Positions 28,928 to 49,918 of a stretch of DNA of 64,000 nt are shown one piece after another; position 1 is the first letter of the stretch, and each line of letters opens with the position of its first letter. Under the pieces are notes generated by a model, which made no database searches, was not told the origin of the DNA, and was given only the letters and a program-made list of their open reading frames with translations. The translations under genes were made by a program, and so were the position numbers. Source of the DNA: Maribacter hydrothermalis (GTDB taxonomy: Bacteria; Bacteroidota; Bacteroidia; Flavobacteriales; Flavobacteriaceae); NCBI RefSeq assembly GCF_001913155.1, contig NZ_CP018760.1, forward strand, positions 3,906,001 to 3,970,000. The letters run 5' to 3'.

Positions 28928-28972
28928 ATGAAGAACAGAACTACACATCATCATATTCATACGCACGCTTAG
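28928..28972 (+). CDS. hisL: Histidine operon leader peptide
   Basis: Fourteen-codon frame encoding MKNRTTHHHIHTHA with five His codons among eight positions, ending TAG. A run of His codons between a promoter and a terminator hairpin just before hisG is the classic arrangement for translation-coupled attenuation: ribosome stalling when charged His-tRNA is scarce would prevent terminator formation. The start codon lies at or within a few bases of the predicted transcription start, so translation may be nearly leaderless. The role is inferred from layout; the codon content is directly visible. Confidence 0.85.
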   Translation: MKNRTTHHHIHTHA

Positions 28973-29010
28973 GCGAGGTAGGAATGTATTGTAGTAGTAC
29001 AACATATTTA

Positions 29011-29041
29011 AAACCCGTTTGAGCAATCAAACGGGTTTTGT
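29011..29041 (+). terminator. Histidine attenuator terminator
   Basis: Perfect twelve-base stem AAACCCGTTTGA / TCAAACGGGTTT with loop GCAA, followed by TGTATTT. It lies 38 bases after the leader-peptide stop and 42 before hisG. A smaller hairpin TTGTA-GTAG-TACAA (28989-29002) lies between the peptide and the terminator and may take part in the alternative pairing. Confidence 0.85.
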
Positions 29042-29940: not shown

Positions 29941-30025
29941 GATAGTATTAAGTACTGAATATTAAGTATTATTTGGAATTGATATGAGTTGAAAATGTTC
30001 ATTGTTCTATTTACATTTTGTAAAC

Positions 30026-30055
30026 CAACAACGAACAACTATCAACGAACAACTA
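30026..30055 (+). repeat. AACAACG-type A/C-rich repeat upstream of hisD
   Basis: Words CAACAACGAACAACT and ATCAACGAACAACT in tandem, ending 9 bases before the hisD ATG. Same word as upstream of efp. The preceding stretch (29943-29970) is an AGTATTAAGTACTGAATATT word tract. Confidence 0.6.
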
Positions 30056-30063
30056 AATAAAAA

Positions 30064-31347
30064 ATGAATAAAATATATAATCCAAAGAGAGCAGATTGGT
30101 CGAAGGTATTAAAACGCCCGACCCAAACTGTTGCCGATATTGAAGGATTGGTCAATACTATTTTTGAGGAAGTTAAACTGGGTGGCGATAGTATCTTAAA
30201 AAAGTATACCGAACAATTCGACAAGGTTAGCTTAGATAGCCTTTTGGTGTCAGAAGATGAAATTGAAGAAGCTAAAACTCTAGTTTCAGAAGAACTGAAA
30301 GCAGCTATTCAATTAGCGAAAGCTAATATCGAAGTTTTTCATACTGCTCAGAAAACGGGTAGGGTCGAAGTGGAAACTGCTGCGGGAGTTTCTTGCTGGC
30401 AAGAGAAAAGACCGATTCAGAAAGTGGGATTGTATATTCCTGGCGGAACAGCGCCATTATTCTCCACCATTTTAATGCTGGCGGTACCGGCAACTATTTC
30501 TGGCTGTTCAGAAATTGTACTTTGTTCGCCTCCCGATAAGGAAGGAAAGCTGAATCCTGCTATTTTGTATACGGCAGATTTATGCGGAGTTACCAAAATT
30601 GTAAAAGTAGGGGGAATTCAAGCAATCGCAGGGATGACTTTTGGCACTGAAACCCTACCGCAAGTGTATAAAATATTTGGACCAGGAAATCAGTATGTTA
30701 CCGTAGCAAAGCAAATTTCTACAAAACACGGTGTCGCTATAGATATGCCTGCTGGTCCGTCAGAATTATTGGTTGTTGCCGATGATTCTGCGAATGCTGC
30801 TTTTGTTGCTTCAGATTTATTAAGTCAGGCAGAACATGGGGTGGATAGTCAGGTGATCTTGGTATCAACTTCTAAAGCGATGATAGATGCTGTCGAAATA
30901 GAAGTAGAAAATCAATTAGAAGAATTACCTAGAAAAGAAATTGCAAGACAAGCCATCGCAAATAGTAAATTGATTTTTGTTGATAACCATCAAGATGCTA
31001 TTGATTTAATTAATGAATACGGACCAGAGCATTATATTGTTTGTGTAGAAAATGAAGATTTTTATATTGACAATACTCAAAATGCAGGTTCTGTTTTTAT
31101 TGGTAATTATACTCCAGAAAGTGCAGGAGATTATGCTTCTGGCACCAACCATACTTTACCAACAAATGGATATGCTAAGCAATATAGCGGAGTAAATTTG
31201 GATAGTTTTATGAAGAGCATGACTTTTCAGAAAATTACAAAAGAAGGTATACAAACCATAGGGAAAGCAATAGAATTAATGGCAGAGGCAGAAGGATTAG
31301 AAGCGCATAAAAATGCAGTAACCTTAAGATTAAATAGCCTTAAATAA
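30064..31347 (+). CDS. hisD: Histidinol dehydrogenase
   Basis: Last two steps of histidine synthesis, oxidising histidinol to histidine with NAD and zinc. 427 residues, family length. Signature region runs from KVGGIQAIAGMTFGTE through IFGPGNQYVTVAKQ and IDMPAGPSELLVVAD. SQAEHGVDSQVILV carries a zinc-ligand His, and GPEHYIVC the general-base His. Ends cleanly in LRLNSLK. Second gene of the operon, preceded by a 123-base gap largely made of repeat words. Confidence 0.96.
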   Translation: MNKIYNPKRADWSKVLKRPTQTVADIEGLVNTIFEEVKLGGDSILKKYTEQFDKVSLDSLLVSEDEIEEAKTLVSEELKAAIQLAKANIEVFHTAQKTGRVEVETAAGVSCWQEKRPIQKVGLYIPGGTAPLFSTILMLAVPATISGCSEIVLCSPPDKEGKLNPAILYTADLCGVTKIVKVGGIQAIAGMTFGTETLPQVYKIFGPGNQYVTVAKQISTKHGVAIDMPAGPSELLVVADDSANAAFVASDLLSQAEHGVDSQVILVSTSKAMIDAVEIEVENQLEELPRKEIARQAIANSKLIFVDNHQDAIDLINEYGPEHYIVCVENEDFYIDNTQNAGSVFIGNYTPESAGDYASGTNHTLPTNGYAKQYSGVNLDSFMKSMTFQKITKEGIQTIGKAIELMAEAEGLEAHKNAVTLRLNSLK

Positions 31348-31360
31348 AAGAGTATTGTCT

Positions 31361-31380
31361 GGTCGAGCGCAGTCGAGACC
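31361..31380 (+). repeat. GAGCGCAGTCGAG-type intergenic repeat between hisD and hisC
   Basis: GGTCGAGCGCAGTCGAGACC, a near-palindromic 20-mer of a kind widespread in flavobacterial intergenic DNA. A diverged copy lies inside hisA (35260-35284) and a partial one after the racemase gene (37680-37693). Confidence 0.7.
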
Positions 31381-32442: not shown

Positions 32443-33585
32443 ATGGAAAATAAAAAACGAGTATTATTTATAGATCGTGACGGAACTATAATTAAAGAAA
32501 CAGTAGATGAGCAGATTGATGCTTTTGAGAAAATGATTTTCTATCCAAAGTCTTTCACTTTCTTAGGTAAAATTGCCAAAGAGCTTGATTATGAAATGGT
32601 GATGATAACCAACCAAGATGGGTTGGGTACAGATGTATTTCCAGAAGATACATTTTGGCCAGTTCATAATTTCATTCTTAAATCTTTTGAAAATGAAGGG
32701 GTAGTTTTTGATAAAGTATTTTTAGATAGAACTTTCCCTCATGAAAACGCCAATACTAGGAAACCTGGTACTGGTCTTTTGACCGAGTATTTTTCTGATG
32801 CATATGATTTAGAAAATTCTTTTGTAATTGGTGATCGATTAACTGATATGGAGTTGGCGAAAAACCTTGGCTCTAAGGGTATTTTTATAAATGATGAAAC
32901 AAATTTAGGTACTGGTGAAATTACGGTAAAACGTGATGAACTAGATAGCCATATTGCTATTGAAAGTAATGATTGGGAGAAGATTTATGAGTTTTTGAAG
33001 TTAAATGATAGAACTGCTGAAATTCATAGAAAAACTAATGAAACAGATATTGCTATAAAACTAAACCTAGATGGTACTGGTAAAAGTGATATTAAAACCG
33101 GATTAGCATTCTTTGACCATATGTTAGATCAATTGGCGCGTCATGGGCAAATGGATTTAATGATTAAAGTTGATGGTGATTTAGAAGTTGACGAGCACCA
33201 TACTATCGAAGATACAGGTATTGCTCTTGGTGAGGTATTTCATAAAGCATTAGGGAATAAGTTAGGTATAGAACGTTACGGATTCTGTCTGCCAATGGAT
33301 GATTGTTTAGCGCAATCTGCCATAGATTTTGGCGGTCGAAATTGGCTAGTATGGGATGCAAACTTTAAACGTGAAATGGTTGGTGATATGCCAACAGAGA
33401 TGTTTCATCATTTCTTTAAATCATTTACTGACGGAGCAAAAGCAAACTTGAATATTAAGGCAGAAGGCACCAACGAACACCATAAGATTGAAGCCATTTT
33501 TAAGGCTTTTGCAAAAAGTATTAAAATGTCGGTAAAGAGAGATGTAGAGAAGATGGTATTACCGAGTACGAAAGGAGTCTTATAA
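32443..33585 (+). CDS. hisB: Bifunctional histidinol-phosphatase / imidazoleglycerol-phosphate dehydratase
   Basis: Fusion of two histidine steps, 380 residues. N-terminal HAD phosphatase (about 1-165) with FIDRDGTI (D10, D12), MITNQDGLG and [16 protein letters not shown]. Its cysteine zinc knuckle seems reduced ([13 protein letters not shown]). C-terminal IGPD (about 190-380) with manganese-binding [32 protein letters not shown] and [17 protein letters not shown]. Ends VLPSTKGVL, the usual terminus. Confidence 0.96.
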
Positions 33586-33586
33586 A

Positions 33587-33613
33587 AGCCTCCTAACCCC
33601 CATAGGGGGAATA
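33587..33613 (+). repeat. C/G-rich hairpin repeat between hisB and hisH
   Basis: AGCCTCCTAACCCCCATAGG and onward GGGGAATA, starting two bases after the hisB stop. The core CCCCC-ATA-GGGGG folds as a hairpin. Same family as 33648-33685, 35950-35983 and 36030-36046. Confidence 0.75.
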
Positions 33614-33628
33614 CTTAAGTTTTATATT

Positions 33629-34261
33629 ATGAATACAGAAAAAAATAAAGCCTCTATCAGCACCCCCATTGGGGGCGGAGGGGGCATTGTAATTATAAAT
33701 TACGGAGCAGGAAATATACAGAGTATCAAATTTGCAATAAAACGTTTGGGTTATGAAGCGGTTTTAAGCAATGATGTTTCTGAAATAAAGCATGCCGATA
33801 AAGTAATATTCCCTGGTGTTGGGGAAGCGAGTAGCGCCATGCAAAAACTTCGCGATAGTGGATTGGATACGCTTATTCCGACATTAAAACAACCTGTTTT
33901 GGGTATTTGTTTGGGGATGCAATTAATGTGCAATTCCTCTGAAGAAGGAAATACCAAAGGCCTCGGCATATTTGATATTGATGTTGTAAAGTTTGATAAA
34001 GCGGTAAAAGTTCCACAAATAGGATGGAATCAAATCATGAATCTGAAATCTAGACTATTTGAAGGTATTACAGAAAAAGAATATATATATTTAGTACATA
34101 GTTTTTATGCGCCTGTATGTAATGAAACCATTGCAACATCAACCTATGGTTTAGAATATAGTGCGGCATTGAAAAAAGATAATTTTTACGGTACTCAGTT
34201 TCATCCAGAGAAATCTAGTGATGTTGGAGAGAAAATATTGAAGAACTTTTTAAGGTTGTAA
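33629..34261 (+). CDS. hisH: Imidazole glycerol phosphate synthase, glutaminase subunit
   Basis: Supplies ammonia to HisF by hydrolysing glutamine. 210 residues. Class I amidotransferase triad: nucleophile C94 in LGICLGMQLM and the His-Glu pair in FHPEKSS near the C-terminus. The family start is normally at about I20 (IVIINYGAGNIQS). The first 19 residues, MNTEKNKASISTPIGGGGG, come from an ATG inside a C/G-rich repeat, and the codon where the native ATG would be is GGC or ATT. The stop overlaps the next start (TAATG). Confidence 0.93.
   Translation: MNTEKNKASISTPIGGGGGIVIINYGAGNIQSIKFAIKRLGYEAVLSNDVSEIKHADKVIFPGVGEASSAMQKLRDSGLDTLIPTLKQPVLGICLGMQLMCNSSEEGNTKGLGIFDIDVVKFDKAVKVPQIGWNQIMNLKSRLFEGITEKEYIYLVHSFYAPVCNETIATSTYGLEYSAALKKDNFYGTQFHPEKSSDVGEKILKNFLRL
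33648..33685 (+). repeat. C/G-rich hairpin repeat inside the 5' end of hisH
   Basis: AAAGCCTCTATCAGCACCCC, then a CCCCC-ATT-GGGGG hairpin and GGAGGGGG. It encodes roughly residues 8-19 of the predicted HisH. Same family as the copy 36 bases upstream. Confidence 0.75.
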
Positions 34262-34683
34262 TGAAGCAAAACAATTTTATTTCAAAAGATATAAGTTTAT
34301 TGAATGTTGAAGAAATTCATCAATTCATCGCTAATTCTTATTGGGGTAAGGGTAGAACGTTAGATGATGTAAAACTAACTATAGAAAATTCGTATTGTTT
34401 TGGTCTTTATACAAACGAGAATAAACAAATAGGTTTTGCACGGGTGGTAACGGATTATATTTATTTTGGCTACTTCATGGATGTTATCATTCTTGATAAG
34501 TTTCAAGGAAAAGGCTACGGTAAAATATTGGTTGAAGCCATGCTAGCTGATTCGACTATAAAAAGCCTAAAAACGCTCTCTTTAAAAACAAAAGATGCAC
34601 ATCATTTATATGAACGATACGGATTTAATAAAATAGGAGATTCACCTTTGTGGATGTCCATTGATAGACAAATTTTAGAATAA
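34261..34683 (+). CDS. GNAT acetyltransferase inside the his operon
   Basis: 140 residues, GNAT fold: N-terminal strand-helix, IGFARVVTDYIYFGYFMDV (about 57-75), then the acetyl-CoA loop VIILDKFQGKGYGKILVEAML (Q/RxxGxG/A form) and the C-terminal DAHHLYERYGFNKIGDSPLWM typical of the family. Substrate unknown. Translationally coupled to hisH (TAATG overlap) and 3 bases from hisA, so certainly in the operon. No known histidine step needs it. An acetylation tied to histidine flux is a guess. Confidence 0.85.
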   Translation: MKQNNFISKDISLLNVEEIHQFIANSYWGKGRTLDDVKLTIENSYCFGLYTNENKQIGFARVVTDYIYFGYFMDVIILDKFQGKGYGKILVEAMLADSTIKSLKTLSLKTKDAHHLYERYGFNKIGDSPLWMSIDRQILE

Positions 34684-34686
34684 AAA

Positions 34687-35451
34687 ATGAGAATAATACC
34701 GGCAATTGATATTATAGATGGTAAATGTGTACGCCTATCAAAGGGTGATTATGATACCAAGAAAATATATAATGAGAATCCGTTAGAGGTTGCGAAGGAG
34801 TTTGAAGCGCACGGTATTCAATATTTACATTTGGTGGATTTGGATGGTGCAAAATCTAAGCATATTGTAAACCATAAAGTGTTAGAACAAATTGCTTCAC
34901 AAACCAATTTAAAAATTGATTTTGGTGGTGGATTAAAGACTGATGAAGATTTGCGTATAGCTTTTGAAAGTGGTGCTAAACAAATTACTGGCGGTAGTAT
35001 TGCGGTAAAAGACCCTAATACTTTCCTTGGTTGGATAGAAAAACATGGTTCAAATAAAATTATTCTTGGCGCAGATGCTATGGATGAAAAAGTAGCAGTT
35101 TCTGGTTGGTTAGAAGAATCTAAAGAAGAATTGATTCCGTTTATACAATCGTATCAGAAAGAAGGAATTCAATATGTTATTTGTACAGATATCAGTAAAG
35201 ATGGTATGTTAGAAGGTCCGTCGTTTGATTTATACAAGAAGATAATTGCCCAAACGGATGTCAGTCTAAGCGCAGTCAAATACCAATCTGTGTTACAAAT
35301 AAAACTAGTCGCTAGTGGCGGAATATCAACTTTTGATGAATTACCTAAATTAGCAGAAATGGGTTGTGAGGGTACTATTATCGGAAAAGCGATTTATGAA
35401 AATAGAATCAGTCTTAAACAACTGGAATCATATATTTTAAGCAATGGATAA
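34687..35451 (+). CDS. hisA: ProFAR isomerase
   Basis: Amadori rearrangement in histidine synthesis; (beta/alpha)8 barrel, 254 residues. Catalytic acids D8 in [17 protein letters not shown] and D168 in [14 protein letters not shown]. Phosphate-binding [11 protein letters not shown] and [11 protein letters not shown]. The segment at about 192-205 ([14 protein letters not shown]), between AQTD and KLVASGG, is not expected in the family and is encoded by bases resembling the GAGCGCAGTCGAG repeat. It falls in the helix-to-strand loop away from the active-site face, so activity may survive. The last 8 bases overlap the DinB start. Confidence 0.94.
35260..35284 (+). repeat. Diverged GAGCGCAGTCGAG-type repeat inside hisA
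   Basis: GTCAGTCTAAGCGCAGTCAA then ATACC. Aligns with GTCTGGTCGAGCGCAGTCGAGACC (31357-31380) over the AGCGCAGTC core and flanks. In frame, it encodes residues 192-200 of HisA. Confidence 0.55.
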
Positions 35452-35983
35452 AGAAACACGTTTAGTCGAGGAAATTGTTGAAAATGCTTTGTATCGTATG
35501 GACGAGAGTACTCGTATGATTAAAAAAAGTCTTGTTGAAATTTCAGAAGAGGAGATTTGGAAAAAGCCTAATCCTTCTTTAAACAGTATGGCAAATCTTA
35601 TTTTGCATTTGTGTGGAAATATGACACAATACGTAATTTCTTCATTGGGTGAAATTGATGATAAAAGGAATAGAGATGTTGAGTTTTCTGTTGATTCAGG
35701 ACTAACGAAGGCGGAGTTATTACATAAATTAGAAGATACGGTAGACTCCGTAAAACGTGTCATTTTTAATACAACAGCCGAAAAGCTGATTAAAGTTAGA
35801 TCTGTTCAAGGAATGTCCTTTTCTGGAGTTGGAGCTATTATGCATGCTGTGGAGCACTACTCATATCATACTGGTCAAATTGCTTTTTATGTAAAATTGA
35901 TAAAAGAAAAGGACTTAGGGTTTTATGAAGGAGTCGATTTGAATATTACAAGCCCCCTAACCCCCAAAGGAGGAATTTCTTGA
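35444..35983 (+). CDS. DinB-like protein inside the his operon
   Basis: 179 residues, DinB/DUF1572-like four-helix fold: [21 protein letters not shown] (about 48-68, first His) and [23 protein letters not shown] (about 130-152, with the His pair). Function unknown; relatives are metal-dependent thiol-using enzymes. Overlaps the hisA end by 8 bases. The last ten residues, [10 protein letters not shown] plus the TGA, are encoded entirely by a C/G-rich repeat (35950-35983), so the native C-terminus has been replaced or extended. Confidence 0.82.
35950..35983 (+). repeat. C/G-rich repeat forming the 3' end of the DinB gene
   Basis: AAGCCCCCTAACCCCCAAAG followed by GAGGAATTTCTTGA. Same core words as 33587-33613 (AGCC-CCTAACCCCC). 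Supplies the last ten codons and stop of the DinB gene. Confidence 0.75.
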
Positions 35984-36029
35984 TTATACAAATGTATTAT
36001 GAGAAAATATAAAATTTTGAGTATTAATT

Positions 36030-36046
36030 CTCCCCTATTGGGGGAG
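36030..36046. repeat. C/G-rich hairpin repeat just before hisF
   Basis: CTCCCC-TATTG-GGGGAG, a six-base stem 14 bases upstream of the hisF ATG. It would sit in the ribosome-loading region and could lower hisF translation. Confidence 0.65.
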
Positions 36047-36060
36047 CTAGAGGTCGCAAT

Positions 36061-36816
36061 ATGTTAGCTAAGAGAATAATTCCTTGTTTAGATATCAAAG
36101 ATGGTAGAACAGTAAAAGGTGTAAATTTCGTTGACTTACGCGATGCAGGTGATCCTGTTGAACTAGCTGAAATTTACAGTCGTGAAGGTGCAGATGAATT
36201 AGTGTTTTTAGACATATCTGCAACGGAACAAAAAAGAAAAACACTAGCAGATTTGGTATATCGCGTAGCGGAGAAAGTGAATATTCCTTTTACCGTTGGT
36301 GGCGGAATTTCATCTGTGGAAGATGTTGATGTTTTACTACAGAATGGTGCTGATAAGGTTTCTATAAATTCATCTGCAGTGAAGAATCCGCAATTGATAA
36401 ACGATTTGGTAGCTAAATTTGGCTCACAATGTATTGTGGTTGCTATAGATGCCAAACAGATTGATGGTGAGTGGATTGTACACTTAGTTGGTGGTAAAGT
36501 GCCAACCGAGCGTAAATTGTTTGAATGGGCAAAGGAAGTAGAAGAGCGTGGAGCTGGAGAAATCTTATTTACTTCTATGGATAATGATGGCACAAAGGAC
36601 GGATTCGCAAATGAAGCCTTGGCAAAATTGTCTACGGAGTTAAATATACCGATAATTGCTTCTGGTGGAGCAGGGAACATACAACATTTTACCGATACTT
36701 TTGTGAAAGGTAAAGCAGATGCAGCGTTAGCGGCAAGTGTTTTTCATTTTAAAGAAATTGGAATTCAAGAATTGAAACTTGAGTTGCAAGAAAATGGGAT
36801 TCCAGTGAGGGTTTAG
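36061..36816 (+). CDS. hisF: Imidazole glycerol phosphate synthase, cyclase subunit
   Basis: Synthase half paired with HisH; forms IGP and AICAR. 251 residues, (beta/alpha)8 barrel. Catalytic D11 in [16 protein letters not shown] and D130 in VVAIDAKQ. Phosphate sites [11 protein letters not shown] and [22 protein letters not shown] is intact. Start at 36061 is the only sensible one. No internal oddity seen, unlike its partners HisH and HisA. Confidence 0.96.
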
Positions 36817-36847
36817 TTTTTTGTAAACACTGTTCAGTTGGCAGTGC

Positions 36848-36875
36848 CAGTTTACAGTAGGCAGTGTTCAGTTTG
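36848..36875 (+). repeat. 28-base direct repeat, left copy, before racemase gene
   Basis: CAGTTTACAGTAGGCAGTGT then TCAGTTTG. The right copy at 37653-37680 differs at one base. Together they bracket the racemase gene. Confidence 0.85.
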
Positions 36876-36898
36876 AAGTTTTAATATACGAAATGTCG

Positions 36899-36919
36899 CT
36901 TCGGCTACGCTCAGTGACC
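36899..36919 (+). repeat. GAGCGTAGCCGAAG-type repeat before racemase gene
   Basis: Reverse complement reads GGTCACTGAGCGTAGCCGAA then G; it matches 54124-54144 with one difference. An ATG at 36893 just before it opens a frame through the repeat into the racemase gene. Confidence 0.8.
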
Positions 36920-37652: not shown

Positions 37653-37680
37653 CAGTTTACAGTAGGCAGTGCTCAGTTTG
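37653..37680 (+). repeat. 28-base direct repeat, right copy, after racemase gene
   Basis: Same 28-mer as 36848-36875 with C for T at one position, starting five bases after the racemase stop. Followed immediately by CGCAGTCGAAGG, a partial GAGCGCAGTCGAG-type repeat. Confidence 0.85.
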
Positions 37681-37734
37681 CGCAGTCGAAGGTTAAGAAC
37701 ATGATTAATAGAATTGAAATAGAATAAAGAGATT

Positions 37735-47502: not shown

Positions 47503-48342
47503 ATGCAAAATCCAATAAAATATATAACACTTTTATTTTTATGTACCCTAGTCTCATGTTCAGATGTTATCGATGTTGACGTACAAACCGATACACTGCG
47601 CTTGGTGGTAGAAGCTTCGTTAGATTGGGAAAAAGGAACAACTGGTAATGAGCAAAGTATTACGCTACGTACTTCTACACCTTTTTTTGAAACACAAAGC
47701 ACTGATGTTATCGGTGCAGAAGTTAGTGTTACCAATGATAACACTGGTGAAGTAAACCTTTTCACAGATCAGAATAATGGCACCTACACGACCACTACTT
47801 TTAATCCAGAATTAGGTGCTAGCTACACTTTAGAAATTGTATATGACGGGGAAACCTATACGGCTAGCGATACCTTAAATGCTGTTCCTGATATTACAGA
47901 GGTATATCAAGATACTGAAGATGGTTTCGATGATGAAACTATTGAATTACATATTGTTTTTACTGACTTTGAAGAAGAAGGAGATAGTTATTTTTTCAAA
48001 TTTAAAAGACCTCAAGATCTTTTACCAACCCTTGAATTGGGTGATGATGAGTTCATAAACGGAAATGAGGTTGACTGGTGGTACGAAATTGACGATGATG
48101 AAGATGAAGAAATTAAACCGTTAGCCCCTGGTGATGTAGTAAATATAACCATGCATAGTATTTCTAGACCTTATTATAATTATATGGATATTGTAATTGA
48201 CCAAATGGGCGGTGTTGGTATTTTCTCAGCTACACCTGTAGACGTAAAAGGAAATTGTATTAATACAACAAATCCCGATAAATACGCACATGGCTATTTT
48301 AGGGTTACTCAGAAAAATACGATAACGTATACTGTAGAGTAA
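47503..48342 (+). CDS. DUF4249 outer-membrane lipoprotein
   Basis: 279 residues. Lipoprotein signal LFLCTLVSCSD with lipid-attachment Cys19. The mature protein is beta-rich (LRLVVEASLDWEKGT, VTNDNTGEVNLFTDQNNGTY, SYTLEIVYDGETYTA) and ends NTITYTVE. DUF4249 lipoproteins travel with TonB receptors and probably act as SusD-like lids. A partial duplicate of its last ~52 codons lies 1.4 kb downstream (49741-49918). Confidence 0.88.
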   Translation: MQNPIKYITLLFLCTLVSCSDVIDVDVQTDTLRLVVEASLDWEKGTTGNEQSITLRTSTPFFETQSTDVIGAEVSVTNDNTGEVNLFTDQNNGTYTTTTFNPELGASYTLEIVYDGETYTASDTLNAVPDITEVYQDTEDGFDDETIELHIVFTDFEEEGDSYFFKFKRPQDLLPTLELGDDEFINGNEVDWWYEIDDDEDEEIKPLAPGDVVNITMHSISRPYYNYMDIVIDQMGGVGIFSATPVDVKGNCINTTNPDKYAHGYFRVTQKNTITYTVE

Positions 48343-49661: not shown

Positions 49662-49740
49662 TTTGTTGGTTTTAGGTTGATTTTATATAACAGTTTGACA
49701 CAATTATGCCATCAAAAATATAATCTTTAGCTTTTATTTA

Positions 49741-49918
49741 TAGATCGTATTACAATTTTATGGATATTGTAATTGACCTAATGGGCGGCATTGGTATTTT
49801 TTCAGCCACACCTGTAGACATAAAAGGAAATTGCATTAATACAACAAATCCCGATAATTATGCTCATGGGTATTTTAGGATTATTCAGAAAAATACGATA
49901 AGGTATACGGTAAAGTAG
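49741..49918 (+). pseudogene. Duplicate of the DUF4249 3' end
   Basis: About 178 bases align base-for-base with 48164-48341, with roughly 22 differences counted by eye and no indel. An open frame remains from an ATG at 49760 (MDIVIDLMGGIGIFSATPVD...) for 52 codons to TAG. Most changes are silent or conservative (V to I). There is no signal sequence or N-terminal part, so it cannot be a working lipoprotein. Confidence 0.88.

Follow-up and report, generated by a model that had tools for sequence, protein, structure and literature searches.

How have the ends of histidine biosynthesis enzymes in the marine bacterium Maribacter hydrothermalis apparently come to be written in hairpin-forming repeats? 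The question is raised by a 64-kb stretch of its genome (positions 3906001-3970000 of a single contig of 4.27 Mb; hereafter the window, whose numbering is used for the his features below, all on the plus strand), in which a first-pass annotation made from the sequence alone had placed a family of C/G-rich hairpins at gene junctions of the his operon. The four hairpins form two inverted pairs, i.e., two copies of one element family, so that the family itself is confirmed. Our analysis indicates that these palindromic elements fill the stop-to-start gaps of biosynthetic operons and took over predicted protein termini. We consider it likely that they are palindromes resembling repetitive extragenic palindromes (REPs) and that they either form the ends of a mobile element bearing a DUF559 endonuclease domain or derive from such ends, being kept where both neighbouring genes remain translatable.

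Each element is composed of a left hairpin, an A/T-rich core and an inverted right hairpin, about 100-115 nt in total, the arms of the printed elements reading about AAGCCCCCTAACCCCCAAAGGGGGAA on the left and about AATTCTCCCCTTTTGGGGGAGCTAGAGGGGGCTT on the right; the left end adjoins a stop codon, and the right end adjoins or, as read from the sequence, replaces a start codon. Element 1 (33586-33686; 82.2 bits to covariance model R1) extends from the hisB stop codon (33583-33585) to the conserved core of hisH at 33686, with its left hairpin (33587-33611) immediately 3' of the stop codon, its right hairpin (33663-33685) predicted to be translated as TPIGGGGG, and C5/G5 hairpin cores at 33597-33609 and 33663-33675. 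Element 2 (35950-36058; 102.1 bits) lies at the junction between a DinB-like gene and hisF, with a left-type arm at 35950-35975 (CCCCC AAA GGAGG) and a right hairpin at 36031-36055 (core 36031-36045). The motif C4-N0-8-G4 was found in the window at three of the element sites and at one unrelated site (1668), and CCTAACCCC only at 33592 and 35956.

The clearest case of a new terminus is HisH (33629-34261), whose first 19 residues had been attributed to the repeat, an attribution that the comparison with relatives upholds. The match to TIGR01855 starts at residue 20, and the sole in-frame ATG, GTG or TTG before the core is that at 33629, 19 codons upstream; these element 1 codons (33629-33685) encode MNTEKNKASISTPIGGGGG. 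An ATG lies at most two codons from the HisH core in 35 of the 37 relatives whose his operons were fetched; the exceptions are the distant outgroup G038 and G026, which is itself a carrier of the element. At bare sites the core is preceded by ...TATGAAA, in the window by TTATAAAAGCC...GGGGGC, the native start "M K" having apparently been replaced by 19 element-derived residues. Wherever a start is replaced, an ATG in the element's core begins an open frame that continues across the right hairpin and into the gene (peptides STPIGGGGG, SSPLGRLGGA and similar). C-rich hisB/hisH gaps were also found in six of 80 named HisH loci (Lutibacter, Gelidibacter, Flavobacterium sp. 14A, a Flavobacteriia bin, Dokdonia and Leeuwenhoekiella), a proportion that is not a frequency because one search seed was an extension peptide. 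All ten carriers read (these six, the window, G026, G141 and G119) have an open frame starting from an in-frame ATG, which lies 14-28 codons upstream of the HisH core (one carrier has a further ATG at 48). That the extensions are an artefact, being untranslated and the genes starting at a non-standard codon within the core, is extremely improbable: many REP-bearing N-termini may be mis-annotated according to one report (PMC3733652), but in the window and G026 the core has no ATG as near as two codons, and the upstream frame is open in every carrier read. The right hairpin is read in different ways among these carriers (STPIGGGGG, VPPFGGLKGG, STPPSGAGG, SSSPLGKLDGA), which speaks for several HisH events; together with predicted starts of TrpG, TrpC and, in G004, G029 and G030, HisA that are likewise supplied by the repeat, this agrees with the repeated insertion proposed in the first-pass annotation.

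Across 35 genomes (the fetched set with three outgroups removed and the window added; classes assigned by a simple script) the hisB/hisH gap holds a C-rich element in two (the window and G026, whose same-site element is 92% identical; none of the other 33 has one there). Fifteen genomes have a GTAC-type inverted pair in this gap, six a gene-bearing interval of 451-452 nt and four other contents, and in eight the junction is bare, with an overlap of 5 nt. The protein of one example of the gene-bearing gap matches PF05635. Gaps of ~440-520 nt were also seen at hisB/hisH, hisH/hisA or dinB/hisF in 14 loci (L057, L059, L061, L062, L063, L064, L065, L070, L073, L075, L078, L079, L086 and L087), with PF05635 proteins encoded in two examples and GTAC-type repeats bordering several. 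Among loci L171-L250 many hisB/hisH gaps contain genus-specific inverted repeats (e.g., AAGTTTCAGGTT pairs in Flavobacterium) and others are bare overlaps.

Two further segments had been traced to repeats. The DinB-like/DUF1572 protein (35444-35983; PF07609, PF05163) ends in many relatives with ...LNIKN(E/K), and its last ten residues in the window are repeat instead, the corresponding codons and stop (35951-35983) coming from the left hairpin of element 2, as had been supposed; where an element replaces a stop, its left arm reads SPLTPKGG and then ends in a stop codon. Element 2 also contains a small predicted open reading frame (ORF; 35999-36067, 22 codons) whose stop overlaps the start of hisF (36061-36816; TIGR00735), and similar ORFs can be read in G026 and G008, both of which have counterparts of element 2 in the same place. 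The third segment, within hisA (34687-35451; TIGR00007), is a real insert (35257-35301, edges approximate). It is a decayed member of the GAGCGCAGTCGAG family, three mismatches from it and hence unlisted in a search allowing at most two, and is common to G033, G002, G017, G016 and G014, where it reads (G/C)TCAGTCTGAGCGCAGT(C/T)GAAGACC and adds a net 9-12 residues. In the same place G013 carries a longer insert of its own, drawn from a related repeat, and G036 a different insert; the remaining aligned relatives have none or at most three extra residues. As the insert is decayed and shared, we assign it to another repeat family and an older event than the C-rich elements. The segments in HisH, the DinB-like protein and HisA are thus all lacking in most orthologues, which is what the first-pass annotation had expected of an alignment.

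It had also expected many more copies in the genome, and here the outcome depends on the family and on the genome. A search with a covariance model built from seven elements, in which 150 of 4088 first-look candidates were scored, identified four full C-rich copies (82-103 bits), two in the his and two in the trp operon, the next match scoring 36 bits, and two half copies, a left half in frame in a histidine-kinase ORF at genome position 201331 and another 5' of an ORF near 2490700. C4-N2-6-G4 is barely above its control (39 versus 32 per strand), and therefore the C-rich family is rare in this genome; GAGCGCAGTCGAG has 11 exact copies, and the genomes of relatives supply the further C-rich copies. 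Repeated 14-mers in 864 kb of the genome fell in 20 of 505 co-directional gaps, two of these in his, and marked no gap holding a C-rich element in his or trp. Other gaps of the his operon in the window (30022-30065, 31360-31380, 36835-36912 and 37653-37689) contain the repeat families CAACGAACAAC, GAGCGCAGTCGAG, CAGTTTACAGTAGGCAGTG and CTTCGGCTACGCTC.

The his operon, which had been singled out, is not special, as the trp operon is equally affected. With TrpE, TrpG, TrpD and TrpC identified by family models, TrpG appears to be extended at both ends by two elements, beginning MSKNIKIKEQQNSSPLGRLGGA and ending PLAPKGGN, and the distance from ATG to core is equal in the six carriers read. Among the 36 genus genomes, 29 of which had the trpE/trpG gap in view, this gap is C-rich in five, decayed C-rich in one and a bare 10-13 nt in 23, and the trpD/trpC gap is C-rich, with its ATG replaced, in one of the 28 in view. 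Frames followed by terminator-like hairpins precede both operons and look like attenuators: MKNRTTHHHIHTHA 5' of hisG (28928-29039; no Rfam match) and MKNLIAKTWWWNNLRKTS 5' of trpE (locus L259, 5432-5553).

Do the elements act in these gaps, or do they merely sit there? In a working intercistronic control element the stop-side hairpin would slow ribosomes as they terminate and the ATG-bearing, A-rich core would set re-initiation, relatives achieving this with hairpins of other families at the equivalent junctions. The hairpins do adjoin stop codons, E. coli REPs less than 16 nt from a stop codon are reported to lower translation (PMC12306157), other inverted repeats occupy the same gap in many relatives, and the small predicted ORF of element 2 runs into the start of hisF, with similar ORFs in G026 and G008. 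The two hairpin stems are well maintained, with 93% and 97% of cells paired and both-side changes in 11 of 11 pairs, and the outer stem that would join the element ends has 76% of cells paired and both-side changes in six of seven pairs, counts that come from a model-fitted alignment, some of whose rows represent opposite strands of the same element or loci that overlap on it, and that cannot separate DNA from RNA function. An outer stem joining stop and start was rejected: despite this pairing on the fitted alignment the ends of an element show no preference for each other, the energies being -17.3 kcal/mol for own and -17.4 kcal/mol for swapped ends, with 2842 of 5000 permutations equally low. 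No Rfam family matched in the window or the trp region, and fold z-scores of the gaps were uninformative because C/G blocks pair in shuffles too and the gaps are cut by ORF calls. As the ends of an element lack this preference and the junction is a bare overlap at hisB/hisH in eight of 35 genomes and at trpE/trpG in 23 of 29, we regard such a control function as unlikely.

Among relatives, at least 17 of 36 genus genomes have a match with E ≤ 0.001, 106 candidates having been scored per genome. In a family sample of 120, filtered strictly and with 31 candidates scored per genome, at least eight, own genome included, have one with E ≤ 1e-4; both counts are lower bounds. The junctions occupied in relatives include his, trp, cysD/cysN, thiolase/FadE and metH/metF; flanking genes were read by eye, with identities tested on examples (CysD/CysN, acetyl-CoA acyltransferase/FadE, ArgC, RuvC/HemW, MetF/MetH and a NirA-like protein). 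The exact left hairpin (CCTAACCCCCN2-4GGGGG) was present in 11 of 19 genomes and absent from eight, with a backward control of 0 in all 19; a Lutibacter bin gave 21 rows (one overlapping), five genomes gave 12, 11, 10, 7 and 6, and five further genomes 4, 4, 1, 1 and 1. In the loci examined (78 rows, 49 non-redundant copies; ORFs called by a longest-ORF script), 33 of the 49 are located at the stop codon of an ORF on their own strand, within -15 to +30 nt of the ORF end, as compared to 3.8% of intergenic positions (binomial 3e-35, shared ancestry ignored).

This excess weighs against the idea, put forward in the first-pass annotation, that insertion was random and that selection removed only copies breaking the frame. 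In favour of that idea, the intragenic and terminal copies read do sit in open frames, and insertion into a tight junction would leave such flanks; against it, the stop-to-start gap is what the elements fill, the same junctions (hisB/hisH, cysD/cysN, thiolase/FadE and metH/metF) are used in different genera, and all the full copies of the Maribacter genome lie in two operons. We hold random insertion of this kind to be quite improbable.

The contents of these gaps can differ between genomes whose flanks are nearly identical. In a tree of hisB, hisF and hisIE (support values unread) the window groups with G002, G033, G016, G017 and G025, and G026 groups with G028. The elements of the window and G026 are identical at 92% of 103 and 83% of 115 aligned sites, their dinB blocks at 69% and hisF at 85%, and identity does not rise beside the shared elements. 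Between the sisters G026 and G028 six blocks beside the dinB/hisF gap are 95-99% identical and the gap contents unrelated (49%); eight blocks beside hisB/hisH are 74-95% identical, and there too the contents are unrelated. Recombination confined to the interval between stop and start, and independent of the flanking genes, could pass gap contents between genomes as short cassettes, and it favours this idea that the window and G026 share both his elements yet group apart on the tree, with no rise of identity beside them, and that well-conserved flanks enclose unrelated contents. However, old content replaced repeatedly in other lines would look alike, neither donor nor tract was found, and the tree carries no support values in this reading; cassette exchange is, in our judgement, rather unlikely.

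What, then, could have brought the elements in? A mobile origin is suggested by a form that carries DUF559 and lies within MetH. All three MetH ORFs seen with internal C-rich hairpins, from relatives of other genera, contain an in-frame DUF559 domain (E 6e-33 to 2e-35): those of family genome G105 (L341, 13395-16517), Flavobacterium sp. 14A (L343, 823-3927) and a Lutibacter bin (L358, 783-3926, minus strand). In L341 and L358 the insert lies between the two B12-binding domains; L341 has hairpins at both edges, the left hairpin of L358 is altered, and L343 is empty at that site. The insert of L343 lies instead inside the MetH activation domain, with a hairpin at each edge. Among 120 listed DUF559 relatives (predicted proteins) at least four have MetH residues beside the domain (P0001, P0018, P0029 and P0055), and one is fused to a PF04551 domain. 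Seven (P0082, P0081, P0083, P0090, P0096, P0054 and P0032) have HisF, cyclase, LeuRS or MetH as source names and only DUF559-type domains recorded; these are possibly further insertions in or beside such genes. The hairpin pair would accordingly be the end structure of the DUF559-bearing mobile element and the short copies its gene-less forms, persisting where translation of the genes on either side is preserved, chiefly at the tight gap from the stop codon of one operon gene to the start codon of the next; the endonuclease is a putative mover of the short copies.

Several observations weigh against this derivation from DUF559 elements. A DUF559 query across all loci examined matched only the three MetH places, and therefore the other elements in those loci carry no such gene and are linked to the MetH inserts by shared hairpins only. 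In the Maribacter genome DUF559 occurs only as part of a Vsr protein, and in a genome devoid of such a gene the copies would therefore be old, imported or otherwise moved; nor does this genome encode a Y1_Tnp transposase. The four full copies confined to two operons are not predicted by random spread, and 16 of the 49 exact copies lie off same-strand stops (four inside ORFs, at least three being right ends read on the other strand). Hairpin-like peptides were found at the expected end in five (left-type) and five (right-type) of the 120 listed DUF559 relatives, as compared to 2 and 0 at the wrong end under the same loose pattern.

The known systems closest in form are REPs, bacterial interspersed mosaic elements (BIMEs) and REP doublets forming hairpins (REPINs), which are described as short palindromes, often in inverted pairs, that lie near stop codons and may supply them, and some of which lie inside ORFs or at ORF ends (PMC3733652, PMC6006769, PMC12306157). 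The C-rich elements resemble them as multicopy inverted pairs with compensatory changes in their stems (on the fitted alignment), at a low copy number (four full copies here; at most about 20 exact left hairpins in any of the 19 genomes). They differ in that an inverted partner lies at the next start codon, native starts appear to be replaced and operon junctions recur, in that no GTAG/CGTC foot was seen (the foot is AAGCCCCCTAA or similar in the elements printed), and in that no linked REP-associated Y1 transposase (RAYT) was found in the own genome or in 15 Y1_Tnp loci of 36 matches. As both the foot and the RAYT link are lacking, we call the C-rich family REP-like and not a REP member. REP counts are published for two Flavobacterium genomes, and these may or may not include the C-rich element. 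That the elements are REPINs mobilised by a RAYT is very improbable: form and position are REP-like and Y1_Tnp occurs in 15 of 22 genomes searched, but the own genome has none, and the CCTAACCCCC-type hairpin is in none of the 15 Y1_Tnp loci fetched, which were scanned whole, the script-picked ORF having missed the gene in four. A RAYT as the mover is thus unsupported.

Other parallels are partial. Rickettsia palindromic elements (RPEs), of ~150 bp, lie in frame in unrelated genes, and N-terminal cases are reported to be expressed in vivo (PMC10969869, PMC3733652); the C-rich elements lie in open frames of genes of different function and may be translated with them, but in another phylum and mostly at operon junctions, and are set beside RPEs by description only. 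The ShiLan domain (PMC11855218) is an in-frame insertion element with a homing endonuclease that is neither intein nor intron; it resembles DUF559 in MetH as an endonuclease-bearing insert that preserves the frame of its host gene, and differs in being an HNH enzyme read in another frame in phages, whereas DUF559 shares the frame of its host gene and lies between palindromes that occur without it as well. Miniature inverted-repeat transposable elements in operons, such as Chunjie (PMC10969869), are similar as small inverted-repeat elements, but no target duplication was seen by eye at hisB/hisH and trpE/trpG, where the start codon is lost. Genes for 23S rRNA intervening-sequence proteins (PF05635) occupy the same his gaps in relatives but have other terminal repeats, of GTACAAAGTA type. 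Elsewhere in the window is a 183-nt direct repeat (48159-48341 and 49735-49917; 89% identity, 1576 nt apart).

A literature search found no title on the C-rich element or on DUF559 inserts among the entries listed, subscription journals lying mostly outside its coverage. For the Flavobacteriaceae we tentatively raise a further possibility, of which we are less than confident: an undescribed class of mobile elements, in which C-rich palindromes flank a DUF559 endonuclease, may enter genes and the stop/start junctions of biosynthetic operons without breaking translation, its gene-less copies continuing to give essential enzymes new termini and coming and going at the same junctions. These observations offer aligned cases in which core enzymes (HisH, TrpG, TrpC and HisA) would have lost their native start codon to a palindromic repeat. 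They also offer sister species with filled sites matched by empty ones, and an endonuclease as a candidate for the spread of the palindromes, so that ideas on how intercistronic repeats and new protein termini originate can be put to the test.

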